Assembly: GCF_900103365.1 (NCBI RefSeq)
Contig: NZ_LT629703.1
Location: 2,852,001 to 2,916,000 of the forward strand
Length of the DNA: 64,000 bases
Source of the DNA: Afipia sp. GAS231
GTDB taxonomy: Bacteria; Pseudomonadota; Alphaproteobacteria; Rhizobiales; Xanthobacteraceae
Direction: 5' to 3'
The notes beneath the pieces were generated by a model, which saw only the letters and a program-made list of their open reading frames with translations, ran no database searches and was not told where the DNA came from. This document shows positions 10,985 through 28,186 of this stretch, piece after piece. A program made the translations under genes and the position numbers. Position 1 is the first letter of the stretch. Each line of letters starts with the position of its first letter.

Positions 10985-10985
<1 letters not shown>
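9309..10985 (-). CDS. Acyl-CoA ligase, PimA-like (AMP-binding family)
   Basis: A 558-residue member of the ANL superfamily that activates a carboxylic acid to its CoA thioester through an acyl-AMP. The P-loop LQYTGGTTGLPKGA, GWGMTETCSPG, LTGDIGYMDGDGYFYLVDR with the hinge aspartate, KDMIISGGFNVYP and the C-terminal GKLSRHEL with the catalytic lysine are all present. Its ATG shares its A with the TGA of the upstream gene, a sign of translational coupling. By order in the operon it matches PimA of R. palustris, which takes dicarboxylates and fatty acids. The chain preference here is not visible in the sequence. Confidence 0.92.
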
Positions 10986-13081
<2,096 letters not shown>

Positions 13082-13145
13082 GGGACTCTCCCTGGATCTT
13101 GTTCTTGGATTTGTTCCCAACTTGCGTTGAGTGGCTACGGTCGTC

Positions 13146-13164
13146 AATTTCGCACTGCGAAATT
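13146..13164. promoter_or_regulatory. Perfect 8+3+8 palindrome, candidate IclR operator
   Basis: AATTTCGCACTGCGAAATT reads as AATTTCGC-ACT-GCGAAATT. It lies in the 158-base divergent gap, about 65 bases upstream of the pimF-like GTG and 75 upstream of the IclR ATG. A TTGACG hexamer on the minus strand (13147-13142) overlaps its edge. Position and symmetry suggest binding of the divergent IclR protein; this is an inference. Confidence 0.55.
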
Positions 13165-13239
13165 TAATTCCACATCTTGACACGGAGGGTTATTTTGAAG
13201 CACGTCCCTTGTCAACGAGCTCCGCGCAGAAGCAGGTAA

Positions 13240-14106
13240 ATGAAGCGTCCAGGGAAGAAAGTGGCGACAGATCGCAGCTTCGTCGTCGCGCTTTCCCGCG
13301 GACTTGATGTGTTGCGCGCATTCCATCCCAACGACGGGCTTCTTGGCAATCAGGAGATCGCCGCCCGTACTAATTTGCCGAAGCCAACCATTTCCCGGCT
13401 GACCTACACCTTGACCAAGCTGGGCTATCTTACACCGGTTCCGCGGTTCGAAAAGTATCAGCTGGCGCCATCGGCCATGGCGCTGGGCTATGCCGCGCTG
13501 GCCAATCTCGGCGTTCGGCATTTGTCCGAACCCTACCGGGAAGAAGTGATGCGCGAGACCGGCGGCGCGGTCGCGGTCGGTGGGCGCGATCGCCACAGCA
13601 TGATCTATTTCGGACAGAGCCGTAACGGGCTGGCGCTCGGCGTCCAGCTCGACGTCGGTTCGCGGGTACCGATCGCGACCACCGCGATGGGCCGGGCCTA
13701 TATCTGGGCGCTGCCGCCGGACGAGCGTGCCTCTTTATTGCGCGAACTGCGCGACCATTACGGCAGCCGCTGGTCCCGGATGCGGGACGGCATCGAGCGC
13801 GCCGGCGAGATGGTGGCGCGTCACGGCTTCACGACCTCCGCCGGTGAGTGGCAGAACGACGTCGCCGCGGTCGGCGTGGCGCTGAAGCTGAATGACGGAA
13901 CCGGTCCGTATGCCTTCAATTGTGGCGCACCGGCATTCCGCTTTACGGAAGATCGGTTGGTCAACGATATTGGACCTCGCCTTGTCGCGATGGTAAGGAA
14001 CATCGAGGCAGCGCTGGGCGGCGCCGCCCCGCAATCAAAAAAAGATGAAAGCAAAAAGCTTAAACCAGGAGGGAAAGTTGCACGTTTGGCCGAGGGGATC
14101 AGATAG
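13240..14106 (+). CDS. IclR-family transcriptional regulator, PimR-like
   Basis: A 288-residue regulator. Residues about 14-75 are the winged helix-turn-helix (ALSRGLDVLRAFHPN, EIAARTNLPKPTISRLTYTL). The rest is the IclR effector domain (GGAVAVGGRDRHSMIYF, IATTAMGRAYIWALPP, SAGEWQNDVAAVGVAL). The C-terminal 25 residues are Lys-rich and probably disordered. It is divergent from the catabolic operon and upstream of the ABC transporter, so it likely senses a pathway substrate or CoA ester and controls both. A perfect palindrome in the shared promoter region is its probable site. Start M1 is preferred; a GTG at 13261 is an alternative. Confidence 0.88.
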   Translation: MKRPGKKVATDRSFVVALSRGLDVLRAFHPNDGLLGNQEIAARTNLPKPTISRLTYTLTKLGYLTPVPRFEKYQLAPSAMALGYAALANLGVRHLSEPYREEVMRETGGAVAVGGRDRHSMIYFGQSRNGLALGVQLDVGSRVPIATTAMGRAYIWALPPDERASLLRELRDHYGSRWSRMRDGIERAGEMVARHGFTTSAGEWQNDVAAVGVALKLNDGTGPYAFNCGAPAFRFTEDRLVNDIGPRLVAMVRNIEAALGGAAPQSKKDESKKLKPGGKVARLAEGIR

Positions 14107-14175: not shown

Positions 14176-14973
14176 ATGACGCAGGCACAGCTCGCGCAGG
14201 GAAATGCTCCCCTGCTTGCGGTTCGCGACGTCAGCGTCGTGTTCGGCGGCATCATCGCGTTGAACGGCGTGTCGTTCGACATGCACAAGGGCGCCATCCT
14301 CGGCCTGATTGGTCCGAACGGCGCCGGCAAGACCACGCTGTTCAACTGCCTCTCCCGGCTCTACCAGCCGTCCTCCGGCGACATCCTGATGGAAGGCGCC
14401 AGCATCCTGACGCGCCCGCCGCACCGGATCGCCGAGATCGGCATCGGCCGCACGTTCCAGAACGTCGCGCTGTTTCCCAACCTGTCGGTGCTCGACAACG
14501 TTCGCGTCGGCACCCATGCGCGCACCTCCAGCGACATCATCTCGGATTCGCTGAAGCTGGCCTGGGTTCGTCGCGGCGAGGCCGACACCAACAAGAAGGT
14601 GCATGAGATCCTGGCCTATCTCGATCTCGAGAGCGTGGGCCACACCGTGGTTTCCGGCCTGCCGTTCGGCACCCAGAAGCGGGTCGAACTGGCGCGCGCG
14701 CTGGCGGCCGATCCCAAGATCCTGCTGCTCGACGAACCCGCCGGCGGCCTCAACCACGAGGAAGTCTATGTGCTGGGCGACCTGATCCGCCGGATCAGGG
14801 ACGAGCGCCACATGACCGTGCTCCTGGTCGAGCATCACATGGGTCTCGTGATGTCGATCGCCGACCACGTCGTCGCACTCAATTTCGGTAAAAAGCTTGC
14901 CGAAGGAACACCGGCCCAGGTCCAGGCCGACCCGGATGTCATCAAAGCCTATCTCGGGAGCAAGGACCAATGA
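14176..14973 (+). CDS. livG: Branched-chain-type ABC transporter ATP-binding protein
   Basis: A 265-residue ATPase of the LivG class that powers HAAT-family uptake. Walker A GPNGAGKT is at residues 46-53 and Walker B reads ILLLDEPAGGL. The Q-loop and switch His (LLVEHHMG) are present, and the C-terminal [10 protein letters not shown] motif is typical of LivG. The ABC signature is degenerate (LPFGTQKRVELARAL in place of LSxGQ). It is the first gene of the transporter operon and overlaps livF by four bases (ATGA). Given the neighbouring beta-oxidation genes, the cargo is more likely a dicarboxylate, fatty or aromatic acid than an amino acid. Confidence 0.92.
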   Translation: MTQAQLAQGNAPLLAVRDVSVVFGGIIALNGVSFDMHKGAILGLIGPNGAGKTTLFNCLSRLYQPSSGDILMEGASILTRPPHRIAEIGIGRTFQNVALFPNLSVLDNVRVGTHARTSSDIISDSLKLAWVRRGEADTNKKVHEILAYLDLESVGHTVVSGLPFGTQKRVELARALAADPKILLLDEPAGGLNHEEVYVLGDLIRRIRDERHMTVLLVEHHMGLVMSIADHVVALNFGKKLAEGTPAQVQADPDVIKAYLGSKDQ

Positions 14974-15683
14974 CCGCGATGCTCAACGTCAAGGATCTCC
15001 GCGCCTATTACGGGCAGGTCCAGGCGCTTCACGGCCTCTCGTTCTCGCTCAACGAGGGCAGCCTGACCACGCTCTTGGGCGCCAACGGCGCCGGCAAGAC
15101 CACCACCCTGCGGGCGATCTGCAACATGGTGCGCTCGACCGGCGCGATCGAATTCGACGGCAAGCCGCTCGGAGGCCGTTCGACCGAAAACGTCGTCCGT
15201 CTCGGCATTGCCCATGTGCCGCAGGGCCGCGGCACTTTCACCACCATGACGGTGGAAGAGAACCTGCAGCTCGGCGCCATCACCCGCACCGACAAGGCCA
15301 ACATCGTCTCCGACATCGAGCGCATGTACGCGCACTTCCCGGTGCTGAAGCAGCGCTACACCCAGCAGGCCGGCACGCTGTCGGGCGGCGAACAGCAGAT
15401 GCTCGCGGTCGCCCGCGCTTTGATGCTGCGTCCGCGGCTGATGCTGCTGGACGAGCCGTCGTTTGGCCTCGCGCCGCTGATCGTGCGCGACCTGTTCGGA
15501 ATTCTCGGCAAGATCAACCGCGAGGACAAGGTCACCATCCTGGTGGTGGAGCAGAACGCGCAATTGGCGCTGGAGCTCGCCGACCAGGCTTACGTGATCG
15601 AAACCGGGCGGATCGTGATGTCGGGCAATGCCAAGGACATCGCGAACAACGAAGACGTCCGTAAATCCTATCTCGGCTACTGA
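14970..15683 (+). CDS. livF: Branched-chain-type ABC transporter ATP-binding protein
   Basis: A 237-residue LivF-class ATPase: Walker A GANGAGKT at residues 37-44, signature TLSGGEQQMLAVARAL and Walker B LMLLDEPSFGLAP. It ends with the usual SYLGY tail. Its ATG overlaps the livG stop, so the two ATPase subunits are translationally coupled and would form the heterodimeric motor of the permease pair encoded next. Confidence 0.93.
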   Translation: MTAMLNVKDLRAYYGQVQALHGLSFSLNEGSLTTLLGANGAGKTTTLRAICNMVRSTGAIEFDGKPLGGRSTENVVRLGIAHVPQGRGTFTTMTVEENLQLGAITRTDKANIVSDIERMYAHFPVLKQRYTQQAGTLSGGEQQMLAVARALMLRPRLMLLDEPSFGLAPLIVRDLFGILGKINREDKVTILVVEQNAQLALELADQAYVIETGRIVMSGNAKDIANNEDVRKSYLGY

Positions 15684-15694: not shown

Positions 15695-16573
15695 ATGGAA
15701 CTCTTTACCAACCAAGTCCTGGCCGGCATCGCCACAGGCGCGATCTACGCCTGTATGGCGCTCGCCGTGGTGATGATCTATCAGGCGATCGACCATCTGA
15801 ATTTCGCCCAGGGCGAAATGGCGATGTTCTCGACCTTCATGTCGTGGCAGATGATGCAGTGGGGCATCCCCTATTGGGGCGCGTTCGTGCTGACCCTGGC
15901 GCTGTCGTTCGCCGGCGGCATCGCCATCGAGCGGCTGTTGTTCAAGCCGCTGGCGAAGGCGCCGGTCCTGACCAACGTCGCCGGCTTCATCGCGCTGTTC
16001 GCCATCGTCAACAGCGTCGCCGGCCTGATCTGGGACTTTACCATCAAGCAGTATCCAACGCCGTTCGGATCCTCGCCCTTCCTCGGCAGCCAACTGATCT
16101 CGACCCACCAGGCCGGCATGATCGGCGTCACCATCCTGCTGCTGATCCTGCTGTTCATCTTCTTCCAGTACACGCGGATCGGCCTTGCGATGCGGGCGGC
16201 GGCCTCGGTGCCTGAATCGGCCCGGCTGGTCGGTATCAACACCTCCTGGATGATCGCACTCGGCTGGGGCATGGCGACCGCGATCGGCGCGATCGCCGGC
16301 ATGCTGATTGCGCCGGTGGTGTTCCTCGAACCGAACATGATGGGCGGCGTGCTGATCTACGGATTTGCCGCGGCCGTGCTCGGCGGCCTGACTTCGCCGC
16401 TGGGCGCCGTGATCGGCGGCTTCCTGGTCGGCATCTTCGAGAATCTCGCCGGCACCTACATTCCCGGCGTCGGTAACGAGCTGAAACTGCCGATCGCGCT
16501 TGCGCTGATCATCGTCGTATTGGTCGTCAAACCGGCTGGGCTGCTTGGCCGGCCCATCGTGAAGCGAGTTTGA
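15695..16573 (+). CDS. livH: Branched-chain-type ABC transporter permease
   Basis: A 292-residue LivH-class inner-membrane permease with about eight hydrophobic segments. The N-terminus VLAGIATGAIYACMALAVVM and the conserved HLNFAQGEMAMF block are diagnostic, as is the GGVLIYGFAAAVLGGLTSP segment before the EAA-like loop. It forms the translocation pore with the next gene. It sits 11 bases after livF in the same operon. Confidence 0.93.
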   Translation: MELFTNQVLAGIATGAIYACMALAVVMIYQAIDHLNFAQGEMAMFSTFMSWQMMQWGIPYWGAFVLTLALSFAGGIAIERLLFKPLAKAPVLTNVAGFIALFAIVNSVAGLIWDFTIKQYPTPFGSSPFLGSQLISTHQAGMIGVTILLLILLFIFFQYTRIGLAMRAAASVPESARLVGINTSWMIALGWGMATAIGAIAGMLIAPVVFLEPNMMGGVLIYGFAAAVLGGLTSPLGAVIGGFLVGIFENLAGTYIPGVGNELKLPIALALIIVVLVVKPAGLLGRPIVKRV

Positions 16574-16575
16574 TC

Positions 16576-17589
16576 ATGAGCGCTGCTGAAGACATCGTCA
16601 CGGAAGCCCCGGCCGTCGAAGCCGTTCCGAAACGCGCCATGACGCTCGGCCTCGGCACCTCGCTGGTGGTGCTGGCCGCTTTGTGTCTCGCGCCGCTGTT
16701 CGTCAAGAACTTCATCATCTTCCAGATGACGATGCTCCTGATCTACGGACTTGCGGTGCTGGCGCTGAACATCCTGACCGGCGGGAGTGGCCAGTTCTCG
16801 CTCGGCCAGAGCGCGTTCTACGCGGTCGGCGCCTACACGTCGGCGATCCTGATGGAACACGCCAACATGAACTACGCGCTGACGCTGCCGATCGCAGGCA
16901 TCGTCTGCTTTGCCTTCGGATACCTGTTCGGCAAGCCGGCGTTGCGGCTTTCCGGCGTCTATCTCGCCTTGGCGACCTTCGCACTCGCCACCGCGATGCC
17001 GCAGCTCCTGAAACTCGGCTTCTTCGAGCACTGGACCGGCGGCGTGCAGGGCCTCGTCGTCACCAAGCCGGACGCGCCGTTCGGCCTGCCGATGTCGCAG
17101 GATATGTGGCTGTATTACTTCACGCTCGCGATCACGGTCGGGATCTATGTCGCTTCCGTAAATCTGCTGCGGTCGCGCTCCGGTCGCGCCTTCATGGCGA
17201 TCCGCGACAACGAGATCGCGGCATCCGCGATGGGCGTCGACGTGGCGCTGTACAAGACGCTGGCGTTCGGCGTTAGCGCGGGAATTACCGGCGTTGCCGG
17301 TGGTCTCGGCGCCATCGCCGTACAGTTCGTGGCGCCTGACGGCTACACCATCACGCTCGCGATCTCGCTGTTCCTCGGCATGGTCGTCGGCGGCGTCGGC
17401 TGGCTGCCGGGTTCGATCGTCGGTTCCGCCTTCATCATCTTCGTGCCGAACATCGCCGAAGGCGTTTCCAAGGGCCTTTCCGGCGCCGTGTTCGGCGTAC
17501 TGCTGTTCCTGGTGATCTTCCTGGTGCCGCACGGCGCCAGACAGGTCGCGATGGTAGCCCAGGGCCTGATCGGCAAGCTCAAGCGTTAA
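16576..17589 (+). CDS. livM: Branched-chain-type ABC transporter permease
   Basis: A 337-residue LivM-class permease from ATG 16576, two bases after the livH stop. Family features are YGLAVLALNILTGGSGQFSLG near residue 60, FMAIRDNEIAASAMGVDVALYK in the central cytoplasmic loop and a Gly-rich TM block GMVVGGVGWLPGSIVG. About ten hydrophobic segments are visible. It is the last gene of the transporter core; a hairpin without a T-run separates it from the first solute-binding protein gene. Confidence 0.92.
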   Translation: MSAAEDIVTEAPAVEAVPKRAMTLGLGTSLVVLAALCLAPLFVKNFIIFQMTMLLIYGLAVLALNILTGGSGQFSLGQSAFYAVGAYTSAILMEHANMNYALTLPIAGIVCFAFGYLFGKPALRLSGVYLALATFALATAMPQLLKLGFFEHWTGGVQGLVVTKPDAPFGLPMSQDMWLYYFTLAITVGIYVASVNLLRSRSGRAFMAIRDNEIAASAMGVDVALYKTLAFGVSAGITGVAGGLGAIAVQFVAPDGYTITLAISLFLGMVVGGVGWLPGSIVGSAFIIFVPNIAEGVSKGLSGAVFGVLLFLVIFLVPHGARQVAMVAQGLIGKLKR

Positions 17590-17600
17590 ATGGAAACCTG

Positions 17601-17637
17601 GAGCCTTTTCCGTTCCGATGGAATCGGAACGGGGCTC
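17601..17637 (+). terminator. Hairpin between livM and the first SBP gene
   Basis: CCGTTCCGAT and ATCGGAACGG form a ten-pair stem around GGA, extended outward by GAGCC/GGCTC. No T-tract follows, so it is more likely a partial terminator or mRNA-stabilising hairpin that sets the ratio of core to receptor. Confidence 0.5.
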
Positions 17638-17762
17638 CGGTCTCTTGTGTCTCTCTTGTCTTGAAGCATTCGTTCATGCCAACCAGTGCCTCCCGGCCCA
17701 AACCGGGGGGCATGTTTCGTTTGAGACACGACAATCAGTAAAACCCAACCTAAGGAGAAATA

Positions 17763-18998
17763 ATGCTTTCGACGTCACCAACAAGAATCGCCGCGTTCAC
17801 GACGGCGGTCATCGCTTTCGCTGCCATGAGCGGCAGCGCACTCGCCCAGAAGAAGTACGACACCGGCGCGTCAGATACCGAGATCAAGGTCGGCAACATC
17901 ATGCCGTACAGCGGCCCTGCCTCCGCCTATGGCGTGATCGGCAAGACCGAAGAAGCGTACTTCAAGATGATCAACGACAAGGGCGGCATCAACGGCCGCA
18001 AAATCAATTTCATTACCTATGATGACGGCTACAGCCCGCCGAAGGCCGTCGAGCAGGTTCGTAAATTGGTCGAGAGCGACGAAGTGCTCGTCGTGTTCAA
18101 TCCGCTCGGCACCCCGTCCAACACCGCGATCCAGAAGTACCTGAATTCCAAGAAGGTGCCGCAGCTGTTCGTGGCGACCGGCGCCACCAAGTGGAACGAC
18201 CCGAAGAACTTCCCCTGGACCATCGGCTGGCAGCCCGCCTACCAGAGCGAAGCGCAGATCTATGCGAAGTGGCTGACGAAAGAGAAGCCCGACGCCAAGA
18301 TCGCGATCCTCTATCAGAACGACGATTTCGGCAAAGACTACCTCAAAGGCACCAAGGACGGTTTTGGCGCCAAGGCCTCCTCCGTCATCATCATGGAAGA
18401 GAGCTATGAGGTTTCCGAGCCGAGCATCGACTCGCACATCGTCAAGATCAAGGCCGCCAACCCGGACGTGCTGCTGATCTACACGACGCCGAAGTTCGGC
18501 GCCCAGACCATCAAGAAGACCGCCGAACTCGGCTGGAAGCCGCTGCAGATCATCACCAACGTCTCGGCCTCGGTCGGCAGCGTGATGGCGCCGGCGGGCT
18601 TCGACAACGCCCAGGGCGTATTGTCGGCGGCCTACGCCAAGGACGGCGCCGATCCGCAATGGAGCAACGATCCCGGGATGAAGAAATGGGTCGAATTCCT
18701 CGAAAAGTACATGCCGGGCGCCGACAAGACCGACGCGAGCATCGTCTATGCCTATGGTGCGGCCCAGACCCTGGCGAAGACGCTTGAGATGTGCGGTGAC
18801 GACCTCACCCGCGCCAACGTCATGAAGCAGGCGGCCAGCCTGAAGGACTTCACGCCGGACACACTGCTGCCCGGCGTCAAGATCAACACCTCGGCCACCG
18901 ACTTCGCCCCGATCAGCCAGTTGCAGATGCAGCGGTTCAAGGGACAGAAGTGGGAATTGTTCGGCGAGACCATCAGCGGCGACATCGCATCCGAATAA
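17763..18998 (+). CDS. Periplasmic solute-binding protein 1 of six (LivK/Peripla_BP_6 type)
   Basis: A 411-residue exported receptor. A signal peptide of about 30 residues ends at SALA, and the mature chain starts QKKYDTGASDTEIKVG. The family hallmark IMPYSGPASAYGVIG follows, then GGINGRKINF, YSPPKAVEQ, NPLGTPSNTAIQKYL, PQLFVATGATKWNDP and YQNDDFGKDYLKG. It delivers a ligand to the LivH-M/F-G core just upstream. AAGGAG precedes the ATG by seven bases. A Rho-independent terminator follows. The ligand cannot be read from sequence; relatives next to pim genes bind dicarboxylic, fatty or aromatic acids. Confidence 0.92.
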   Translation: MLSTSPTRIAAFTTAVIAFAAMSGSALAQKKYDTGASDTEIKVGNIMPYSGPASAYGVIGKTEEAYFKMINDKGGINGRKINFITYDDGYSPPKAVEQVRKLVESDEVLVVFNPLGTPSNTAIQKYLNSKKVPQLFVATGATKWNDPKNFPWTIGWQPAYQSEAQIYAKWLTKEKPDAKIAILYQNDDFGKDYLKGTKDGFGAKASSVIIMEESYEVSEPSIDSHIVKIKAANPDVLLIYTTPKFGAQTIKKTAELGWKPLQIITNVSASVGSVMAPAGFDNAQGVLSAAYAKDGADPQWSNDPGMKKWVEFLEKYMPGADKTDASIVYAYGAAQTLAKTLEMCGDDLTRANVMKQAASLKDFTPDTLLPGVKINTSATDFAPISQLQMQRFKGQKWELFGETISGDIASE

Positions 18999-19089
18999 TG
19001 CTGCATTGCCGTTCAGGGCACAATTTCCGGGCCGACGCGAAGTGTTTGCCCGGATATCACGCCCGAATAGATGAACGGCCGGAACAGCT

Positions 19090-19125
19090 GCCCTCTGCGA
19101 CGCAAGCCGCAGAGGGCTTTTTATT
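19090..19125 (+). terminator. Rho-independent terminator after SBP 1
   Basis: GCCCTCTGCG pairs with CGCAGAGGGC across an eight-base loop and is followed by TTTTTATT. The CTGCG/CGCAG heart of the stem recurs in the terminators after SBP 3, 4 and 5. Confidence 0.85.
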
Positions 19126-19138
19126 GACCCGATGCCCG

Positions 19139-19158
19139 AAACGTATTCAATGCGGCAA
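19139..19158 (+). promoter_or_regulatory. Recurrent motif after terminator 1 (possible promoter element of SBP 2)
   Basis: AACGTATTCAATGCGGCAAA closely resembles AAGGTATTGAATGCCGCAA at 20490-20510. Partial matches occur at the same relative place before SBP 4 (21887-21905) and SBP 5 (23416-23440). The copies lie just downstream of each terminator and upstream of the next gene. Function is not established. Confidence 0.4.
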
Positions 19159-19181
19159 ACAACCGAAAACGGAACGTCGGA

Positions 19182-20402
19182 ATGACTGCTATCTATCGGC
19201 GATTGGGAGCAGCCGTACTCGCCCTGTTCACCGCGACCTGCGGCAGTGCCTTCGCCCAGAAGAAGTATGACCCCGGCGCGTCGGACACCGAAATCAGGAT
19301 CGGCAACATCATGCCGTACAGCGGACCGGCCTCCGCCTATGGCGTGATCGGCAAGACCGAAGAGGCCTATTTCAGGAAGATCAATGCCGAGGGCGGCATC
19401 AACGGCCGCAAGATCACCTTCATCAGCTACGACGACGGCTACTCACCGCCCAAGGCGGTCGAGCAGGCGCGCAAGCTGGTCGAGAGTGACGGGGTGCTGC
19501 TGATATTCAACTCGCTCGGCACGCCGTCCAACGTGGCGATCCAGAAGTACATGAACGACAAGCAGGTGCCGCAACTGTTCGTCGCCAGCGGCGCCACCAA
19601 GTGGAACAGCCCAAAAGAATTTCCGTGGACCATGGGCTGGCAGCCCTCCTACCAGAGCGAAGCACGCATCTACGCCAAGTACCTGATCAAGGAAAAACCC
19701 GACGCCAAGATTGGCGTGCTCTACCAGAACGACGATTTCGGCAAGGACTACCTCAAAGGCCTCAAGGATGGTCTCGGCGCCAAATCGTCGATGATCGTCG
19801 CCGAGCTAGGCTACGAGACCCTGGATCCGACGATCGACAACCAGGTCGTCAAGCTGAAGGCTTCCGGCGCTGACGTCTTCATCAGCATCACGACGCCGAA
19901 ATTCGCGGCGCAGGCGATCAAGCGGGCCGCCGAGTTCAACTGGAAGCCGCTGCAGATCGTCGCCAGCGTCTCGTCCTCGGTCGGCGGCGTGATGAAGCCG
20001 GCGGGTTTCGAGAATACGCAAGGCATCCTGTCGGCGGCCTACGACAAGGACGGCGCCGATCCGCAGTGGGACAACGATCCCGGCATGAAGAATTTTGCGA
20101 CCTTCCTCGCCAAATATTATCCCGAGGGCAACAAGAGTGACGGCGCTCTGATCTTTGGCTATGGGGCGGCGCAGACCATGGTGAAGGTGCTGCAGATGTG
20201 CGGCGATGACCTCACCCGCGCCAATGTCATGAAGCAGGCCGCAAGCCTGAAGGATTTCGTGCCCGACACGCTGCTTTCCGGCATCAAGATCAACACCTCA
20301 GCCACCGACTTCGCGCCGATCGAGCAACTTCAGTTGATGCGATTTAAAGGCGAGAAATGGGAGCTGTTCGGCGACATCATCGGCGGCACCCCCGGCCGCT
20401 GA
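19182..20402 (+). CDS. Periplasmic solute-binding protein 2 of six
   Basis: 406 residues, same architecture as its neighbours: signal peptide to about residue 26 (FAQ junction), mature start QKKYDPGASDTEIRIG. It is one of the more divergent members: NSLGTPSNVAIQKYMN, VASGATKWNSPK and AELGYETLDPTIDNQ differ from the consensus at segments that line the pocket in this fold. The ribosome site is weak (GGAACGTCGGA before the ATG), unlike the strong ones of SBP 1 and 4. It is bounded by terminators on both sides, so it is probably transcribed alone. Confidence 0.9.
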   Translation: MTAIYRRLGAAVLALFTATCGSAFAQKKYDPGASDTEIRIGNIMPYSGPASAYGVIGKTEEAYFRKINAEGGINGRKITFISYDDGYSPPKAVEQARKLVESDGVLLIFNSLGTPSNVAIQKYMNDKQVPQLFVASGATKWNSPKEFPWTMGWQPSYQSEARIYAKYLIKEKPDAKIGVLYQNDDFGKDYLKGLKDGLGAKSSMIVAELGYETLDPTIDNQVVKLKASGADVFISITTPKFAAQAIKRAAEFNWKPLQIVASVSSSVGGVMKPAGFENTQGILSAAYDKDGADPQWDNDPGMKNFATFLAKYYPEGNKSDGALIFGYGAAQTMVKVLQMCGDDLTRANVMKQAASLKDFVPDTLLSGIKINTSATDFAPIEQLQLMRFKGEKWELFGDIIGGTPGR

Positions 20403-20441
20403 ACGGCAGGGCTGCTGCCGGGCTGTGCGACTAAATGAGGT

Positions 20442-20475
20442 CCCCCCGCGACACCGTCGCGGGGGGCTTTTCGTT
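20442..20475 (+). terminator. Rho-independent terminator after SBP 2
   Basis: CCCCCCGCGAC pairs with GTCGCGGGGGG around a three-base ACC loop, followed by CTTTTCGTT. Confidence 0.85.
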
Positions 20476-20489
20476 GCTGGGAGCGGCCG

Positions 20490-20510
20490 AAAGGTATTGA
20501 ATGCCGCAAG
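20490..20510 (+). promoter_or_regulatory. Recurrent motif after terminator 2 (possible promoter element of SBP 3)
   Basis: AAAGGTATTGAATGCCGCAAG is the closest copy of the element at 19139-19158. It lies 65 bases before the SBP 3 start. Confidence 0.4.
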
Positions 20511-20574
20511 GAGCCGCCAAGCGCCCCAAATCAAAAAAAATCGACACATTCAACGTGATCCCAGGGAGATCAAA

Positions 20575-21804
20575 ATGCCTGCTATCCATGTGCGATTGGG
20601 GGCGCTTTCGGCTGCCCTCGCGATATTGGCCGCGACCAGCAGCGGCGCATCCGCGCAAAAGAAATACGACATCGGCGCATCAGACACCGAAATCAAGATC
20701 GGCAATATCATGCCCTATAGCGGACCGGCTTCCGCCTATGGCGTGATCGGCAAGACCGAGGAAGCCTATTTCCGCAAGATCAATGCCGAAGGCGGCATCA
20801 ACGGCCGCAAGATCACCTTCGTCAGCTACGACGACGCCTACTCGCCGCCGAAGACGGTGGAGCAGGCACGCAAGCTGGTCGAGAGCGACGAGGTACTGAT
20901 CGTCTTCAATCCGCTGGGCACGCCGCCGAATTCGGCGATCCAGAAATACATGAACCAGAAAAAGGTGCCGCAACTGTTCGTCGCCACCGGCGCCACCAAG
21001 TGGAACGATCCGAAGGAATTCCCCTGGACCATGGGCTGGCAGCCCAACTACCAGAGCGAAGCCCAGATCTATGCGAAGTACATCCTGAAGAACAAACCCG
21101 ATGCCAAGATCGCGGTGCTCTACCAGAACGACGATTACGGCAAGGACTATCTGAAGGGCTTCAAGGACGGGCTTGGCGCCAAGGCCGCCTCCTTGATCGT
21201 GATGGAGGAGAGCTACGAGGTCTCCGAACCGACGATCGACTCCCACATCGTCAAACTCAGGTCGACCGGCGCCGACGTGTTCTTCAACATCACGACGCCG
21301 AAATTCGCGGCGCAGGCGATCAAGAAGAACATGGAGATCGGCTGGAAACCGCTGCACTTCCTCAACAACGTCTCGGCCTCCGTCGGCAGCGTCATCAAGC
21401 CGGCCGGCTTCGAGAACGCACAGGACATCATTTCTTCGAACTACCTCAAGGATCCCACCGATCCGCAGTGGAAGACCGACAAGGGGATGATCGCCTGGAA
21501 CGAGTTCCTGGATAAGTATTATCCGGAAGCCAACCGCGCCGATGCCTCCGTGATGTACGCCTACACCGTCGCCCAGGGCCTCGTGCACGTGCTCAAGGCC
21601 TGCGGCGACGACCTGACCCGCGCCAACATCATGAAGCAGGCGGCCAGCATCAAGGAGCTCGAACTCGGCGGGCTGTTGCCCGGCATCAAGGTCAGCACGT
21701 CAGACACCGACTTCGCGCCGATCTCGCAATTGCAGTTGATGAAATTCAAGGGCGAGGGCTGGGATCTGTTTGGTGAAATCCTGAGCGGCGACGTCGGCGG
21801 CTGA
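20575..21804 (+). CDS. Periplasmic solute-binding protein 3 of six
   Basis: Start at ATG 20575, eight bases after AGGGAG; the reading frame extends upstream but that part is the terminator region. 409 residues, signal peptide MPAIHVRLGALSAALAIL ending at ASA. From QKKYDIGASD to KLVESDEVLIVFN it is almost the same as SBP 4, differing in a few residues and mostly synonymous bases, which points to recent duplication or gene conversion. The pocket-region variant is NPLGTPPNSAIQKYMN. The C-terminus ends FGEILSGDVGG, also shared with SBP 4. Confidence 0.92.
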   Translation: MPAIHVRLGALSAALAILAATSSGASAQKKYDIGASDTEIKIGNIMPYSGPASAYGVIGKTEEAYFRKINAEGGINGRKITFVSYDDAYSPPKTVEQARKLVESDEVLIVFNPLGTPPNSAIQKYMNQKKVPQLFVATGATKWNDPKEFPWTMGWQPNYQSEAQIYAKYILKNKPDAKIAVLYQNDDYGKDYLKGFKDGLGAKAASLIVMEESYEVSEPTIDSHIVKLRSTGADVFFNITTPKFAAQAIKKNMEIGWKPLHFLNNVSASVGSVIKPAGFENAQDIISSNYLKDPTDPQWKTDKGMIAWNEFLDKYYPEANRADASVMYAYTVAQGLVHVLKACGDDLTRANIMKQAASIKELELGGLLPGIKVSTSDTDFAPISQLQLMKFKGEGWDLFGEILSGDVGG

Positions 21805-21837
21805 GGCGTTCGTCTGCGAAATTCACCTGAGGCATTC

Positions 21838-21873
21838 GGGGCTCTCTGCGACAATTCGCAGGGAGCCCTTTGT
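21838..21873 (+). terminator. Rho-independent terminator after SBP 3
   Basis: GGGCTCTCTGCGA pairs with TCGCAGGGAGCCC (one T-G pair) around CAAT, followed by TTTGTT. Confidence 0.85.
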
Positions 21874-21886
21874 TGAGTACACCCCG

Positions 21887-21905
21887 GTATAATGGTATTC
21901 ACGAC
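21887..21905 (+). promoter_or_regulatory. Motif before SBP 4, contains TATAAT
   Basis: GGTATAATGGTATTCACGA includes a perfect TATAAT at 21888-21893 and resembles GGTAAAATGGTAATCAGCG before SBP 5 in 14 of 19 positions. It could be the -10 region of a promoter for SBP 4; no clear -35 was found in the preceding terminator. Confidence 0.4.
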
Positions 21906-21986
21906 TCCGGCGTCGCAAAAAGACTTCGATCCGAAAAGCCCTGACGCTCACGACAGAAAATGATCAAAAAACGGAGGAAGTCCTAA

Positions 21987-23219
21987 ATGCCCATTACCGC
22001 CCGACGGCTTGCGATCGGCTCAGTGGCCGGCTTCGCGCTGCTTGCTGCAACCAGCAGCGGCGCATTAGCGCAAAAGAAATACGACATCGGCGCGACCGAC
22101 ACCGAGATCAAGATCGGCAACATCATGCCCTATAGCGGACCGGCTTCCGCCTATGGCGTGATCGGCAAGACCGAGGAGGCCTATTTCCGCAAGATCAACG
22201 CCGAGGGCGGCATCAACGGCCGCAAGATCACCTTCGTCAGTTATGACGACGCCTACTCGCCGCCGAAGACGGTGGAGCAGGCGCGCAAGCTGGTAGAGAG
22301 CGACGAAGTCTTGATCGTCTTCAACTCGCTGGGCACCGCGATGAACTCGGCGATCCAGAAATATCTCAATACCAAGAAGGTGCCGCAGCTCTTTGTTGCG
22401 ACCGGCGCCACCAAGTGGAACGATCCGAAGGAGTTTCCCTGGACCATGGGCTGGCAGCCCAACTACCAGAGCGAAACCGTGATCTACGCGAAGTACATCC
22501 TGAAGAACAAGCCGGATGCGAAGATCGCGGTGCTCTATCAGAACGACGACTACGGCAAGGACTATCTCAAGGGATTGAAGGACGGCCTCGGCGCCAAGGC
22601 CGCCTCGATGATCGTCGCCGAGGAAAGCTACGAGACCTCGGAGCCGACGATCGACACCCATATCGTCAAGCTGAAATCCACAAATGCCGATATCTTCCTG
22701 AATGTCGCCAGCCCGAAATTCGCGGCGCAGGCGATCCGCAAGATGGCCGAGATCGGCTGGAAACCGATGCACTTCCTCAACAACGTCTCGGCCTCGATCG
22801 GCGGCGTCATCACGCCGGCAGGACCGGAAAACGCGCAAGACATCATCTCGTCGGCCTACCTCAAGGATCCGACCGACACGCAGTGGAAAGACGACAAGGG
22901 CATGAAGGCGTGGAACGAATTCCTGGACAAGTATTATCCGGAAGCCAACCGCACCGATGCCTCGGTGATGTACGCCTACACCGTGGCGCAAGGCCTCGTG
23001 CACGTGCTCAAGGCCTGCGGCGACGACCTGACCCGCGCCAACATCATGAAGCAGGCCGCTAGTATCAAGGATCTCGAGCTCGACGGCTTGCTGCCGGGCA
23101 TCAGGGTCAACACGTCAGGCACTGATTTCGCGCCGCTGTCGCAGGTGCAACTGGAGCGCTTCAAGGGCGGCACCTGGGAGCTGTTTGGTGAAATTCTGAG
23201 CGGCGACGTCGGCGGCTGA
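21987..23219 (+). CDS. Periplasmic solute-binding protein 4 of six
   Basis: 410 residues with a strong ribosome site (GGAGGAAG) before the ATG. The signal peptide ends at GALA; mature start QKKYDIGATDTEIKIG. The N-terminal lobe is near-identical to SBP 3, but the pocket loop reads NSLGTAMNSAIQKYLN and the second lobe has LNVASPKFAAQAIRKM, so ligand preference may have shifted after duplication. It ends FGEILSGDVGG. Confidence 0.92.
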   Translation: MPITARRLAIGSVAGFALLAATSSGALAQKKYDIGATDTEIKIGNIMPYSGPASAYGVIGKTEEAYFRKINAEGGINGRKITFVSYDDAYSPPKTVEQARKLVESDEVLIVFNSLGTAMNSAIQKYLNTKKVPQLFVATGATKWNDPKEFPWTMGWQPNYQSETVIYAKYILKNKPDAKIAVLYQNDDYGKDYLKGLKDGLGAKAASMIVAEESYETSEPTIDTHIVKLKSTNADIFLNVASPKFAAQAIRKMAEIGWKPMHFLNNVSASIGGVITPAGPENAQDIISSAYLKDPTDTQWKDDKGMKAWNEFLDKYYPEANRTDASVMYAYTVAQGLVHVLKACGDDLTRANIMKQAASIKDLELDGLLPGIRVNTSGTDFAPLSQVQLERFKGGTWELFGEILSGDVGG

Positions 23220-23239
23220 AGCGTTAACACTCTCTTGTT

Positions 23240-23352
23240 TGACGCGTTTTCTACCGCAGATGGGTCTACGCAATCTGCGCAAGCCTGATTGCCATGCGAA
23301 CCGGGGACCACCCCCGGATCAAGTCCGAGGGCATGCTTCGCTCGAAAACGCT
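23240..23352. repeat. Interrupted AGCGTTTTCGAGCGAAG-family repeat
   Basis: The outer arms GACGCGTTTTCT and GCTTCGCTCGAAAACGCT match the repeat found intact at 24755-24803 and 37559-37606. Between them about 80 bases are inserted, including a GATCAAGTCCGAGGGCATGC piece of the CGTCATGCCCGG family. It is a composite of two repeat families between SBP 4 and its terminator. Confidence 0.6.
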
Positions 23353-23370
23353 GTGCTCGACTAAAGGAGA

Positions 23371-23404
23371 AGCCCCTGCGGCTTTGTCGCAGGGGCTTTT
23401 TATT
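23371..23404 (+). terminator. Rho-independent terminator after SBP 4
   Basis: AGCCCCTGCG pairs with CGCAGGGGCT around GCTTTGT, followed by TTTTATTG. Confidence 0.87.
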
Positions 23405-23415
23405 GTGACCCATCG

Positions 23416-23440
23416 GGTAAAATGGTAATCAGCGCGCAAG
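23416..23440 (+). promoter_or_regulatory. Motif before SBP 5, like that before SBP 4
   Basis: GGGTAAAATGGTAATCAGCG follows terminator 4 and matches GGTATAATGGTATTCACG before SBP 4; TAAAAT could serve as a -10 box. It lies about 75-95 bases before the SBP 5 start. Confidence 0.35.
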
Positions 23441-23513
23441 TCACCAAGAGCTTTCGATCAAGAAAGCCATGACACATATCATTCCACCCTGTGGAAATCG
23501 AGGGAGAGACGTC

Positions 23514-24743
23514 ATGCCCGTTATCGCCAGACCATTGGCCGTAGCTTCGACCGCATTCGCCTTGTTCGCCGTATCCGCCAGCGGCGCGCTGGCGCAGAAA
23601 AAATACGACACCGGTGCGACCGATACCGAAATCAAGATCGGCAACATCATGCCCTACAGCGGACCCGCTTCCGCCTACGGCATCATCGGCAAGACCGAGG
23701 CCGCCTACTTCAAGAAGATCAACGATGCCGGCGGCATCAACGGCCGCAAGATCAACTTCGTCAGTTATGACGACGCCTACTCGCCGCCGAAGACGGTCGA
23801 ACAGGCCCGCAAGCTGGTCGAGAGCGACGAAGTGCTGTTCATCTTCAACTCGCTTGGAACGCCGTCGAACTCGGCGATCCAGAAGTACATGAACTCCAAG
23901 AAGGTGCCGCAACTGTTCGTCGCCACCGGCGCCACCAAGTGGAACGACCCGAAGGATTTCCCCTGGACCATGGGCTGGCAGCCCAACTACCAGAGCGAAA
24001 CCCAGATCTATGCAAAGTACATCCTGAAGAACAAGCCGGACGCCAAGATCGCGGTGCTGTTCCAGAACGACGACTACGGCAAGGACTATCTGAAAGGCCT
24101 GAAGGATGGCCTCGGCCCGAAAGCCGCCAGCATGATCGTCGCCGAGGAGAGCTTCGAAACTTCAGAGCCGACCATCGACAACCATATCGTCAAGCTGAAG
24201 TCGACCAATGCCGACGTGTTCATCGACATCGCGACGCCGAAATTCGCCGCACAGGCGATCAAGAAGGTCGCCGAGATCGGCTGGAAGCCGACGCACTTCC
24301 TCAACAACGTCTCGGCCTCCGTCGGTGCCGTGATCAAGCCGGCCGGTTATGAGAATGCGCAGGACATCATCTCGGCCGCCTACCTCAAGGACGCTTCCGA
24401 CAAGCAGTGGGACAACGATCCCGGCATGAAGGAATTCTACGCCTTCATGACCAAGGACTTTCCGGAAGGCGACAAGCTCGACGGCGGTACGGTCACGGGT
24501 TACGGCGTCGCCCAGACCCTGGTCCAGGTGCTGAAGCAGTGCGGCGACAACCTGACCCGCGAAAACGTCATGAAGCAGGCAGCGTCGCTGAAGGACTTCC
24601 GTACCGAAGTCCTGCTGCCCGGCATCAAGATCAACACCGGCCCGACCGATTTTGCTCCGATTTCCTCGCTTCAGCTGATGAGGTTCAAGGGCGAGCGTTG
24701 GGAGCTGTTCGGCGACGTCATCAACGCCGACGCCGGCGGCTAG
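23514..24743 (+). CDS. Periplasmic solute-binding protein 5 of six
   Basis: Start at ATG 23514, eight bases after GGGAGAG. 409 residues, signal MPVIARPLAVASTAFALF ending at GALA; mature start QKKYDTGATDTEIKIG. It shares the second-lobe LNNVSASVGAVIKPAG region with SBP 3 and 4, but diverges in the C-terminal lobe (YAFMTKDFPEGDKLDGGTVTGYG instead of the NEFLDKYYPEAN type). FQNDDYGKDYLKG replaces YQNDD. It is flanked by terminators 4 and 5. Confidence 0.92.
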   Translation: MPVIARPLAVASTAFALFAVSASGALAQKKYDTGATDTEIKIGNIMPYSGPASAYGIIGKTEAAYFKKINDAGGINGRKINFVSYDDAYSPPKTVEQARKLVESDEVLFIFNSLGTPSNSAIQKYMNSKKVPQLFVATGATKWNDPKDFPWTMGWQPNYQSETQIYAKYILKNKPDAKIAVLFQNDDYGKDYLKGLKDGLGPKAASMIVAEESFETSEPTIDNHIVKLKSTNADVFIDIATPKFAAQAIKKVAEIGWKPTHFLNNVSASVGAVIKPAGYENAQDIISAAYLKDASDKQWDNDPGMKEFYAFMTKDFPEGDKLDGGTVTGYGVAQTLVQVLKQCGDNLTRENVMKQAASLKDFRTEVLLPGIKINTGPTDFAPISSLQLMRFKGERWELFGDVINADAGG

Positions 24744-24754
24744 TCTTTATGTTT

Positions 24755-24803
24755 AGACGCGTTTTCTTTACGCGAACCGGCGTCCACTTCGCTCGAAAAC
24801 GCT
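24755..24803. repeat. AGCGTTTTCGAGCGAAG-family palindromic repeat
   Basis: GACGCGTTTTCTTTACGCGA at the left and CACTTCGCTCGAAAACGCT at the right; the same unit in reverse orientation is at 37559-37606. It is a small repeat common in rhizobial genomes. Confidence 0.7.
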
Positions 24804-24824
24804 ATTGAAACTGTTCTGGATTAA

Positions 24825-24858
24825 GCCCCCTGCGACAGTCTCGCAGGGGGCTTTTTCT
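24825..24858 (+). terminator. Rho-independent terminator after SBP 5
   Basis: GCCCCCTGCGA pairs with TCGCAGGGGGC around CAGTC, followed by TTTTTCTT. Confidence 0.88.
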
Positions 24859-24954
24859 TGCGCAGATTTGTTTCCCCTGTATCAATGCGAGGGAAGAAAC
24901 GACAGGCCCGCTCGACCCGAAAGGGCCGCCAAAAAACCGACAGGGAGTTCAGGG

Positions 24955-26184
24955 ATGACCAGCCCGATCAGCCGCCGCTTCGCCACCGTCCTTTTGGGTC
25001 TGTCGCTGACTGCAGCCACCGGCCATACGGCGTTCGCGCAGAAGAAATACGATACCGGCGCCAGCGACACCGAGATCAAGATCGGCAACATCGTTCCCTA
25101 TAGCGGCCCGGCCTCGGCCTATGGCGTGGTCGGCAAGGCGATGGGCGCGGTGTTCAAGAAGGTCAACGACGACGGCGGCATCAACAGCCGCAAGATCAAC
25201 TTCATTTCCTACGACGACGCCTACTCGCCACCCAAAGCCGTGGAGCAGGCGCGCAAGCTGATCGAGAGCGACGAGGTGCTGCTGCTGTTCGGCACGCTCG
25301 GCACCGCCTCGAACACCGCGATCCAGAAATACGTCAACGGCAAGAAGGTGCCGCAACTGTTCGTCGCCACCGGCGCCACCAAATGGAACGACCCGAAGAA
25401 TTTTCCCTGGACCATGGGCTGGCTGCCCTCCTACCAGAGCGAGTCGCGGATCTACGCAAAGTATCTCGCCAAGGAGAAGCCGGCGGCCAAGATCGCGGTA
25501 CTCTACCAGAACGACGACATGGGCAAGGACTACCTGAAAGGCCTCAAGGACGGTTTTGGCGCCGACGCGTCGCGCATCATCGCCGAGGAGAGCTACGAGG
25601 TGGCGGAGCCGACGGTCGATAACCACGTCGTGCGGCTGAAGTCCGCCAATCCCGATGTCATCATCTTCTTCACGACGCCGAAATTCGGCGCGCAGGCGAT
25701 CAAGAAGATCGGCGAGATGAACTGGAAGCCGGTCACGATCGTTTCCAATGTCTCAGCCTCGACCGCGACCGTGATGCGCCCCGCCGGCCTCGACAATTCG
25801 CAAGGCGTGATGTCAGCAGCCTATGCCAAGGACGTCAGCGACCCGCAATGGACCGGCGACGCCGGCATCAAGGCGTTCGACGAACTGCTCGCAAAGTACC
25901 TACCGGAGGTCAACCGCGTCGATGCGTCGGCGATGACCGGCTACAACATGGCGACCACCATGGTCGAGGTGCTGAAGCGCTGCGGCGACAACCTCACCCG
26001 CGAGAACGTCATGAAGCAGGCGGCCGGCCTCAAGCAATTGGCGCAAGGCGGCCTGCTGCCCGGCATCACGCTGACCACCGGCCCGGATGATTTCCAGCCG
26101 ATTGAACAGTTGCAGTTGATGCAGTTCAAGGGCGAGCGCTGGCAATTGTTCGGCGACGTCATCAGCGGCGAACTGAGCAACTGA
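24955..26184 (+). CDS. Periplasmic solute-binding protein 6 of six
   Basis: Start at ATG 24955 (CAGGGAG upstream). 409 residues, signal peptide to about residue 28 (TAFA), mature start QKKYDTGASDTEIKIG. It is the most divergent copy: VPYSGPASAYGVVGKAMGAVF replaces the MPYSGP...TEEAYF stretch, the pocket loop is GTLGTASNTAIQKYVN, and INSRKINF replaces INGRK. No terminator follows; the glycerate kinase gene starts 20 bases later, so unlike the other five this SBP gene probably shares a transcript with an enzyme. Confidence 0.9.
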   Translation: MTSPISRRFATVLLGLSLTAATGHTAFAQKKYDTGASDTEIKIGNIVPYSGPASAYGVVGKAMGAVFKKVNDDGGINSRKINFISYDDAYSPPKAVEQARKLIESDEVLLLFGTLGTASNTAIQKYVNGKKVPQLFVATGATKWNDPKNFPWTMGWLPSYQSESRIYAKYLAKEKPAAKIAVLYQNDDMGKDYLKGLKDGFGADASRIIAEESYEVAEPTVDNHVVRLKSANPDVIIFFTTPKFGAQAIKKIGEMNWKPVTIVSNVSASTATVMRPAGLDNSQGVMSAAYAKDVSDPQWTGDAGIKAFDELLAKYLPEVNRVDASAMTGYNMATTMVEVLKRCGDNLTRENVMKQAAGLKQLAQGGLLPGITLTTGPDDFQPIEQLQLMQFKGERWQLFGDVISGELSN

Positions 26185-26204: not shown

Positions 26205-27488
26205 ATGACCGACCGACGTCCCCTCCTCCGCGCGATCTTTGACGCGGCGGTTGCTGCAGCCCATCCCGACGTCGTGCTGTCGGCGCATCTCCGCCCCGTC
26301 CCAAAGGGCCGCGTCATCTGCCTTGCCGCCGGCAAGGGTGCGGCCGCGATGGCTGCGGCGGCGGAGCGGCATTACCTCGACAAGCTCAAACTCGATCCGG
26401 CGCGCCTGATCGGTATTGCCACCACCCGCCACAGCCACGGCGTGCCGACGCGACGGATACGAGTCGTCGAGGCCGGCCATCCCGTGCCGGATGAAGCCGG
26501 CCTGAGAGCCGCCGACGACACGCTGCGGCTGGCGGCGGAAGCGACCGCGGACGACCTGCTGCTGGTGCTATTGTCCGGCGGCGGCTCCGCCAACTGGATC
26601 GCGCCGGTCGAGGGCGTGTCGTTCGCGCAAAAGCAGCAAGTCAACCGCGCGCTGCTGCGCTCGGGCGCGCCGATCGGCGAAATGAACGTGGTGCGAAAAC
26701 ATCTGTCGCGGGTCAAAGGCGGAAGGCTGGCGCGCGCCGGCCAGCGCGCCGCCGAAATCGTCACGCTGGCGATCTCCGATGTGCCGCATGACGATCCGTC
26801 CGCCATCGCGTCCGGCCCGACGGTGCCGGACCCGACCACGCTGGCGGATGCTCGCGCGCTGGTCGCGCGATATAACCTCGCGATCGATGATGCCGTTCGA
26901 CACGCGCTGAATGATCCGAACAACGAGAGCTGCAAGCCTGGCGATCCCGCTTTCGCCCGCGCGCAGTTCGAACTGATCGCGCGGCCGAAGGCCTCGCTCG
27001 ATGCCGCGGTCAAGATCGCCGGAGACGCGGGCTATGCGATCATCGAACTCGGCGCCGACCTCGAAGGCGAGGCCCGCGAGGTCGCCGCCGAACATGCGCG
27101 GCTGGCATTGAAGGCACGCAGCGAAGGCCGGCGGACCGCGATCCTGTCCGGCGGCGAGTTGACGGTGACCGTGCGCGGCAACGGCCGCGGCGGTCCCAAC
27201 CAGGAATATGCACTGGCGCTGGCCGATCTCTTGAAGGACACAACCGACATGGCCGCGCTGGCGGCCGATACCGACGGCGCCGATGGCGGCGCCGGCAGCG
27301 CCACCGATCCCGCAGGCGCGGTGATCGACCACAAGACATTTGCGAAAATGAAGTCGCTGGGACTGGATCCCAAGGCGTATCTCGCCAACAACGACGCGTC
27401 GGCGTTTTTCGAAGCCACCGGCGATTTGCTGCTGACCGGCCCGACGCTGACCAATGTGAATGACGTCAGGGTGATTTTGGTGGATTAG
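26205..27488 (+). CDS. Glycerate 2-kinase (GckA/TtuD, MOFRL family)
   Basis: A 427-residue glycerate kinase that phosphorylates D-glycerate to 2-phosphoglycerate; older annotation calls this family TtuD hydroxypyruvate reductase. The N-terminal DUF4147 region shows LAAGKGAAAMAAAAE, GHPVPDEAGLRAAD and LLSGGGSANWIAP, then VVRKHLSRVKGGRLA. The C-terminal MOFRL domain has LSGGELTVTVRGNGRGGPNQE and ADTDGADGGAGSATDPAGA. It is 20 bases downstream of SBP 6 and appears co-transcribed with it. Its link to the dicarboxylate-type transporter is unclear; it may use a glycolate/tartrate-derived product imported by SBP 6 or be there by chance. Confidence 0.9.
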   Translation: MTDRRPLLRAIFDAAVAAAHPDVVLSAHLRPVPKGRVICLAAGKGAAAMAAAAERHYLDKLKLDPARLIGIATTRHSHGVPTRRIRVVEAGHPVPDEAGLRAADDTLRLAAEATADDLLLVLLSGGGSANWIAPVEGVSFAQKQQVNRALLRSGAPIGEMNVVRKHLSRVKGGRLARAGQRAAEIVTLAISDVPHDDPSAIASGPTVPDPTTLADARALVARYNLAIDDAVRHALNDPNNESCKPGDPAFARAQFELIARPKASLDAAVKIAGDAGYAIIELGADLEGEAREVAAEHARLALKARSEGRRTAILSGGELTVTVRGNGRGGPNQEYALALADLLKDTTDMAALAADTDGADGGAGSATDPAGAVIDHKTFAKMKSLGLDPKAYLANNDASAFFEATGDLLLTGPTLTNVNDVRVILVD

Positions 27489-27608: not shown

Positions 27609-28127
27609 TCAAAACTCCATCGCGATCTTCGACAACATGTCGAGCAGCGCGACGCGGCCGTCCAGACCGAGCAACTCGTTGAGCCGTGCCTCGTGCTTGG
27701 TCGCGACCAGTTTTTTGGCGCGCGCCAGCACAGCGCGGCCCTTGTCGGTCAAAACCAGGATGTGGGAGCGGCGGTCGTTGGTCGAACGCATCCGCGCGCA
27801 GAGATCGCGGCTCTCGAGCCCGTCCAGCATCGCCACGAAATTCGGCCTGAGGATGCCGAGCGTGTTGGCGATCTCGGTCTGGTTGCGGCCGGGATTCTTG
27901 TCGAGCAACAGCAGCACCGAGAATTGCGCCGGGGTCAGTTGCAGCGGCGCGACGCAGCGCAGAAAATCCTCGAACACCTTGAGCTGGGCGCGCTTGAGCG
28001 AATAGCCGAGCAGTTCGGACAGCTCACCCAGTTGCAGGACGGCATTGTCAGCGGCGCCGTCGAGCGCATCCTTGCCGCCCAGACGGGAAGCCTTGACGGC
28101 GTCGGCGCTCACCTTGGAAACTGTCAT
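27609..28127 (-). CDS. MarR-family transcriptional regulator, possibly CouR/HcaR-like
   Basis: Start at ATG 28127 (MTVSKVSADAVKAS); 172 residues. MarR winged helix at about residues 60-140: APLQLTPAQFSVLLLL, NQTEIANTLGILRPNFVAMLDGL, then the wing RMRSTNDRRSHILVLTDKG. Flanking helices form the dimer. It is divergent from a second branched-chain-type ABC transporter. Hydroxycinnamate loci of R. palustris (couR) and Agrobacterium (hcaR) carry MarR regulators that respond to aryl-CoA esters. The nearby feruloyl-CoA synthase cluster and the shared AT-rich site at 28187-28216 suggest the same role here, as inference. Confidence 0.85.
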   Translation of the reverse strand: MTVSKVSADAVKASRLGGKDALDGAADNAVLQLGELSELLGYSLKRAQLKVFEDFLRCVAPLQLTPAQFSVLLLLDKNPGRNQTEIANTLGILRPNFVAMLDGLESRDLCARMRSTNDRRSHILVLTDKGRAVLARAKKLVATKHEARLNELLGLDGRVALLDMLSKIAMEF

Positions 28128-28186
28128 CGCTCGCGGCTCGCAATCCCGATAAAAAGTCCCGCCGACGGTCCGGGCCTTGATGTTAT

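Follow-up and report, generated by a model that had tools for sequence, protein, structure and literature searches.

What does one ATP-binding cassette (ABC) importer gain from six neighbouring receptors? The question is raised by a 64,000-nucleotide stretch of Afipia sp. GAS231 (the window; NZ_LT629703.1, positions 2,852,001 to 2,916,000, in a 7.58 Mb genome of one contig), in which a single livG-F-H-M set adjoining pimA, pimC and a pimF-like gene is followed by six paralogous solute-binding proteins (SBPs), named S1 to S6 here. We propose that S1-S6 are the exported type-I SBPs of this one LivGFHM-type importer at the pim locus; each would capture medium- and long-chain fatty and dicarboxylic acids, with overlapping yet different preferences, and hand them to the common permease, and the imported acids would feed PimA activation and pim beta-oxidation. 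The receptor set would have grown through old tandem duplications, S3 and S4 being the closest pair, and its members would be transcribed separately. We put the probability of this explanation as a whole at about 0.7.

Six intact receptors behind one importer core

The core and the receptors, numbered from the first letter of the window, are:

14176..14973, + strand, livG-type ATPase (PRK11300/LivG 266.5 bits, below the cut-off of 362)
14970..15683, + strand, livF-type ATPase (PF00005 106.9 bits)
15695..16573, + strand, livH-type permease (PF02653 107.5 bits; PRK10740/LivH 112.8 bits, below the cut-off of 379)
16570..17589, + strand, livM-type permease (PF02653 104.2 bits)
17763..18998, + strand, S1, SBP of 411 residues (PF13458 200.8 bits)
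19182..20402, + strand, S2, SBP of 406 residues (PF13458 196.9 bits)
20575..21804, + strand, S3, SBP of 409 residues (PF13458 183.2 bits; AlphaFold2 model pLDDT 90.6)
21987..23219, + strand, S4, SBP of 410 residues, duplicate partner of S3 (PF13458 182.4 bits)
23514..24743, + strand, S5, SBP of 409 residues (PF13458 178.1 bits)
24955..26184, + strand, S6, SBP of 409 residues (PF13458 195.1 bits)

An earlier, sequence-only reading had described six intact receptors of 406-411 residues behind one livG-F-H-M set, and both statements hold: all six open reading frames are open, PF13458 (Peripla_BP_6) scores 178-201 bits in each (cut-off 31.7), and the single core set spans 14176-17589. The PF13458 match covers nearly the whole protein in all six, which identifies them as type-I SBPs of liv-type (HAAT) importers, with the two-lobed type-I periplasmic binding protein fold; the NCBIfam LivK model gave only 57.6, 61.7 and 60.0 bits (cut-off 477) for the three receptors scored with it (S1, S3 and S6), so that this model does not class them as LivK/LivJ. 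The common mature start QKKYD noted earlier is found in all six, behind a hydrophobic N-terminal stretch and an Ala-x-Ala motif, together a candidate export signal. The loops quoted as distinguishing the receptors are also correct, but only five of the six are distinct, NSLGTPSN being common to S2 and S5.

Pairwise identity of the mature proteins runs from 65% (S4/S6) to 88% (S3/S4). All six receptors are under purifying selection, with ratios of non-synonymous to synonymous divergence (dN/dS) of 0.05-0.16 against the nearest ortholog (for S4 in the relative L015, for the others in G188), and their effective codon numbers (33-39) are similar to those of the core genes (32-37).

The genes upstream of the core place it at a pim locus, the PimA and PimC models matching above their cut-offs:

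8086..9276, - strand, pimC, pimeloyl-CoA dehydrogenase large subunit (TIGR03204 879.9 bits, cut-off 623.85)
9309..10985, - strand, pimA, dicarboxylate-CoA ligase (TIGR03205 1093 bits, cut-off 705.6)
10985..13183, - strand, pimF-like fused enoyl-CoA hydratase/3-hydroxyacyl-CoA dehydrogenase, start codon uncertain (FadB/FadJ models match below their cut-offs)
13240..14106, + strand, IclR-family regulator, PcaR/PobR-like (TIGR02431 104.9 bits, below the cut-off of 284.75)

The name pimF follows the position of the gene in what we take to be the pim operon order.

Array size across relatives

Six receptors in a row had been called unusual, and counts at syntenic loci bear this out, six being the upper end of the range. 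Named loci, the nearest of them mostly Bradyrhizobium, were fetched with S3 as query, and an array was taken as complete if it was bounded by livM and the kinase gene that closes it and was unbroken. Among the best 80 of 568 loci, 66 arrays were complete, with two (11), three (12), four (30) or five (13) receptors and none with six; the other 14 were incomplete or broken. Three loci (L041, L050 and L079) were left out of the complete-array counts because pieces of S1 there had counted as separate receptors; S1 seems split into two or more open frames in each, and pseudogenes or assembly errors are both possible.

Twenty same-genus genomes, picked from those with matches, hold two, three, four and five receptors in 2, 7, 7 and 4 cases. 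A further 20 of the 38 genomes with strong matches, G188 of the same genus included, gave ten bounded arrays, five with two receptors, four with three and that of G188 with five; among the other ten, locus L140 (genome G190, genus g55) has six receptors between livM and a Cou-like cluster. At E<=1e-190, 48 of the 49 same-genus genomes, our own included, have a receptor match and one (G043) has none. Across the clade the pim core is followed by one to six receptors, one at L200, the core locus of genome G116, whose locus L148 is an unlinked receptor. The array is thus a large example of a transporter locus that is known and specific to the clade, not the oddity of one strain.

Origin of the array

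By these receptors the closest relative is G188, which holds S1, S2, S3, S5 and S6, with no counterpart of S4 in its array. In our tree (a quick one with SH-aLRT support only, and with an open fork where the S3 and S4 types join) S4 clusters with a receptor from the metagenome-assembled relative L015, which shows S1, S2, S4, S5 and S6 on a contig that ends there. The S3/S4 pair therefore appears to predate the split from G188, its copies having been lost or missed elsewhere. At silent sites S3 and S4 have diverged further (0.50) than S3 and its ortholog in G188 (0.33), and this, together with the grouping, rules out S4 as a very recent copy made in this strain alone. The six receptors of L140 come from lineages partly different from S1-S6, and so six was probably reached twice. 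Several of the receptor lineages predate the separation of the genera compared.

A comparison of silent sites in 35 genomes, kept from 47 once near-identical ones were dropped, led us to reject the idea that the N-lobes are similar mainly through gene conversion, which is left with at most a weak effect. Over the first 40 codons the silent difference within genomes lies 0.02-0.03 below that between genomes for three neighbouring pairs (such a low value arose in 2, 0 and 0 of 200 shuffles), while three non-neighbouring pairs show little or no deficit (145, 155 and 12 of 200); a few later bins deviate too, namely S3/S5 at codons 80-160 and some non-neighbours.

Terminator-like hairpins between the receptors

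All six gaps ahead of receptors, that between livM and S1 included, hold a strong hairpin followed by T-rich sequence:

17598..17640, + strand, hairpin between livM and S1, its tail T-rich but less typical (-28.9 kcal/mol; 40 mononucleotide shuffles, mean -3.3, minimum -13.4)
19090..19117, + strand, intrinsic-terminator-like hairpin 3' of S1 (-20.7 kcal/mol)
19143..19152, + strand, GTATTCAATG element past the S1 hairpin, candidate promoter part, read from the sequence
20439..20468, + strand, intrinsic-terminator-like hairpin 3' of S2 (-25.1 kcal/mol)
20494..20503, + strand, GTATTGAATG element past the S2 hairpin, candidate promoter part, read from the sequence
21838..21869, + strand, intrinsic-terminator-like hairpin 3' of S3 (-26.7 kcal/mol)
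23369..23399, + strand, intrinsic-terminator-like hairpin 3' of S4 (-25.7 kcal/mol)
24823..24853, + strand, intrinsic-terminator-like hairpin 3' of S5 (-26.0 kcal/mol)
26205..27488, + strand, glycerate 2-kinase-like gene closing the array, 20 bases 3' of S6 (NF041176 183.4 bits, below the cut-off of 550)

With 40 mononucleotide shuffles each, the shuffle minima for the six hairpins lie between -9.7 and -18.3 kcal/mol; the 20-base gap between S6 and the kinase gene has no hairpin. Among gaps of 60-600 bases in the window and its relatives (45 of 340 gaps fall outside these limits, and near-identical genomes were kept in), hairpins of -15 kcal/mol or below occur in 240 of 269 receptor-receptor gaps and in 17 of 26 livM-receptor gaps, against one of 88 shuffled gaps. 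A single operon for core and receptors is not favoured, given a strong hairpin in every gap before a receptor; the receptors could therefore be transcribed independently of the core and of one another. They look like separate transcription units, in an array unlike a plain operon extension.

We infer separate promoters, of which a short element, KGTATTSAATR, may be a part. Mostly 22-26 bases downstream of the hairpin, it matches at 9 or more of 11 positions in 150 of 260 sequences, compared with 45 of 780 mononucleotide shuffles, the pattern having been derived from the same sequences in which it was counted. It is found in none of 21 S5-S6 gaps, and a sigma-70 scan behind the hairpins returned no standard promoter. 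A second short element, GACACAT, seen ahead of S3 and S5 in relatives, occurs in 82 of 260 post-hairpin sequences (7 of 260 shuffled), mostly before S3-type receptors.

Probable ligand preferences and pocket residues

Rhodopseudomonas palustris has three such receptors, RPA3723-RPA3725, beside pimFABCDE; RPA3723 and RPA3724 differed in their thermal-shift profiles for fatty and dicarboxylic acids, and RPA3725, which is 71% identical to RPA3724 and 60% to RPA3723, bound no ligand in the published screen (PMC3223731). Three three-receptor arrays of the group g57 have identities of 71-75% between second and third receptors, 58-61% between first and second and 59-63% between first and third, a pattern by which g57 is presumably Rhodopseudomonas. 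In the tree, which includes two of these arrays, the second (middle) receptor groups with S1 and the third with S5, with no member in the S2, S3/S4 or S6 lineages. Identities and grouping together point to S1 as belonging to the RPA3724 lineage, a binder, and S5 to the RPA3725 lineage, ligand-less in the screen.

Just three alignment columns are fixed inside each of five lineages yet hold at least three residues among lineages, and one of them aligns with Tyr150 of the leucine-binding protein, LBP (F/F/Y/Y/Y/M). The position aligned to LBP Glu226, which we take to be the acidic residue for the amino group, as we also assume the roles of the other LBP pocket residues, is valine in all six, at an alignment posterior of only about 0.4. 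The comparison of pocket residues proposed in the sequence-only reading came out divided, with one aligned pocket residue that differs and many positions that are the same in all six. The latter, along with the absence of any ligand for the probable S5-lineage receptor of R. palustris, weighs against one distinct ligand per receptor.

That most aligned pocket positions are identical would also suit paralogs that share their ligands and chiefly serve to increase receptor abundance or to buffer loss, as would the high N-lobe identity, the weak silent-site similarity of neighbours in the first 40 codons and an array size that varies without loss of the locus. We consider this unlikely, in view of the old separate lineages, the lineage-fixed pocket difference and the differing profiles of RPA3723 and RPA3724 (PMC3223731). 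The same three points, with purifying selection, give the best support to the reading first suggested from the sequence, in which the receptor repertoire broadens what a single transporter can take up. That reading was incomplete in three ways: the array does not look like a plain operon extension, it is not confined to this strain, and 17 unlinked relatives mean that one core with six receptors may understate the system.

Unlinked receptors and split arrays

In the Afipia genome PF13458 gave 72 matches, 71 of which were used and one, below the cut-off, dropped; the S1-S6 subfamily, defined by a score of at least 400 bits, has 23 members, namely S1-S6 and 17 unlinked relatives. Within 10 kb, 16 of the 23 lack any PF02653 permease, all of them unlinked; the remaining unlinked receptor has one at 8.3 kb, lying by a core that another receptor adjoins. 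For 16 of the 17, the three genes called on either side include nothing LivG/F/H/M-like, in a scan that left out the receptor of L186, missed by the gene caller. The 30 neighbours scanned include two AMP-binding ligases, two acyl-CoA dehydrogenases, a thiolase, two alcohol dehydrogenases and two hydantoinase subunits. Elsewhere in this genome (G000, 3378121-3380786; L183) another pair of subfamily receptors stands in tandem, with no PF02653 permease within 370 kb, and a caspase-domain (Peptidase_C14) gene adjoins another unlinked receptor gene (L184:8034-9395).

The livH of the pim locus is its own sole match in this genome at E<=1e-60 (20 candidates scored). Across 119 genomes of the family (receptors at E<=1e-120, LivH at E<=1e-60, PimA at E<=1e-200; receptor counts are lower bounds, at most 15 candidates being scored per genome), all 53 with subfamily receptors have a pim-type LivH, with one match in 44 and two in 9; three genomes have the pim-type LivH alone and 63 have neither. 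Cou-type LivH occurs in 38 of the 53 and in 20 genomes besides, and PimA in 38 of the 53 and in no others.

Arrays are also split in nature. In G134, a genome of another genus assembled in two contigs, 3.09 Mb of one contig separate a five-receptor block from the core, which has two receptors beside it, and about 17 kb of sequence upstream of the block yielded no core genes; core and block are on different contigs in G102, G154 and G180, and likewise in G170, from match lists alone. In the split arrays of L196-L199, L141 and L142 (G134, G102, G180 and G154), two receptors stay with the pim core and the rest lie elsewhere.

It is possible, at somewhat less than even odds, that the single pim core serves the 17 unlinked relatives too. 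This would make one single-copy importer a hub for about 23 receptors, six adjacent and individually terminated and up to 17 unlinked, several of these beside catabolic genes, each expressed according to its own pathway and all docking on the same LivHM. The missing permeases and core genes, the ligase, dehydrogenase and thiolase neighbours, the distant block of G134 and the pim-type LivH in every receptor genome, set against a Cou-type LivH in 38 of 53, all speak for it, and Rhizobium offers a precedent in BraC3, a receptor encoded elsewhere that works with the Bra membrane core (PMC2978685). This evidence consists of genomic context and co-occurrence, however, and has weaknesses: many of the 30 neighbours have no link to acid catabolism, the unlinked relatives share 45-71% identity with whichever of S1-S6 they match best and may dock elsewhere, it is common in this genome for a receptor to have no permease close by (19 of 48 other SBPs), and, since a receptor usually sits beside the core, part of the co-occurrence is trivial. 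On the last two counts, the data fit a shared core and do not prove one. We rejected other liv-type cores lacking a receptor as partners of the unlinked relatives: four permease clusters are without an SBP within 10 kb, but the ATPases encoded there are 511-645 residues long, a length typical of the double ATPases in sugar or nucleoside importers.

The second liv-type core downstream

A second liv-type core (28305-31848) starts 2.1 kb downstream of S6, within a CouPSTU-like cluster with its own receptor. This cluster (window 27609-41142) comprises MarR regulators (27609-28262 and 32391-32873), livH2, a livM-livG fusion (29219-31120), livF2, a CouP-like receptor (35850-37001; E 2e-193 to 4jb0, R. 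palustris CouP) and acyl-CoA synthetase and hydratase genes. It also encloses a DosP-like GGDEF/EAL gene (33037-35667). Part of the array might serve this core instead of the pim core, since in G102 and G134 the split-off five-receptor block adjoins a Cou-like core, apart from the pim core. We regard this as very improbable: the second core has the CouP-like receptor nearby, 15 of the 53 receptor genomes have no Cou-type LivH at E<=1e-60, and 20 genomes have a Cou-type LivH and no receptors.

Relation to known systems and implications

Escherichia coli LivJ and LivK are two paralogous receptors of one LivHMGF core, with the same fold as S1-S6 and amino-acid ligands. Rhizobium Bra belongs to the same importer class as the pim-locus core. 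It resembles the possible hub in that its membrane core works with a receptor encoded at a distance, and differs in having one extra receptor, BraC3, for branched-chain amino acids and alanine, as against six adjacent and up to 17 unlinked receptors here, whose use in trans is hypothetical (PMC2978685). The RPA3723-RPA3725 system shares the neighbourhood, the kind of SBP and several receptors per core, but has three receptors to our six, and the consulted part of its description makes no mention of inter-receptor hairpins such as those found here (PMC3223731). CouPSTU of R. palustris is likewise an ABC importer for plant-derived acids with a liv-type receptor, but a single one, CouP, which binds phenylpropenoids (PMC3610893).

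The type of locus is therefore already known; new are the hairpin before each receptor, the three lineage-fixed columns, and the 17 unlinked relatives with the split arrays, although some of this may have been described before, chiefly in subscription journals. What deserves testing is the individual termination of the receptors and the possible role of the core as a hub, and the clade provides both a natural series of receptor numbers and natural cases in which most receptors lie far from the core. If the hub holds, the many receptors with no nearby permease in large rhizobial genomes would have a core to work with, and the number of ABC importers would be too low a measure of uptake range. 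As a model, the locus suggests that soil bacteria may widen nutrient uptake by more receptors, not more transporters.

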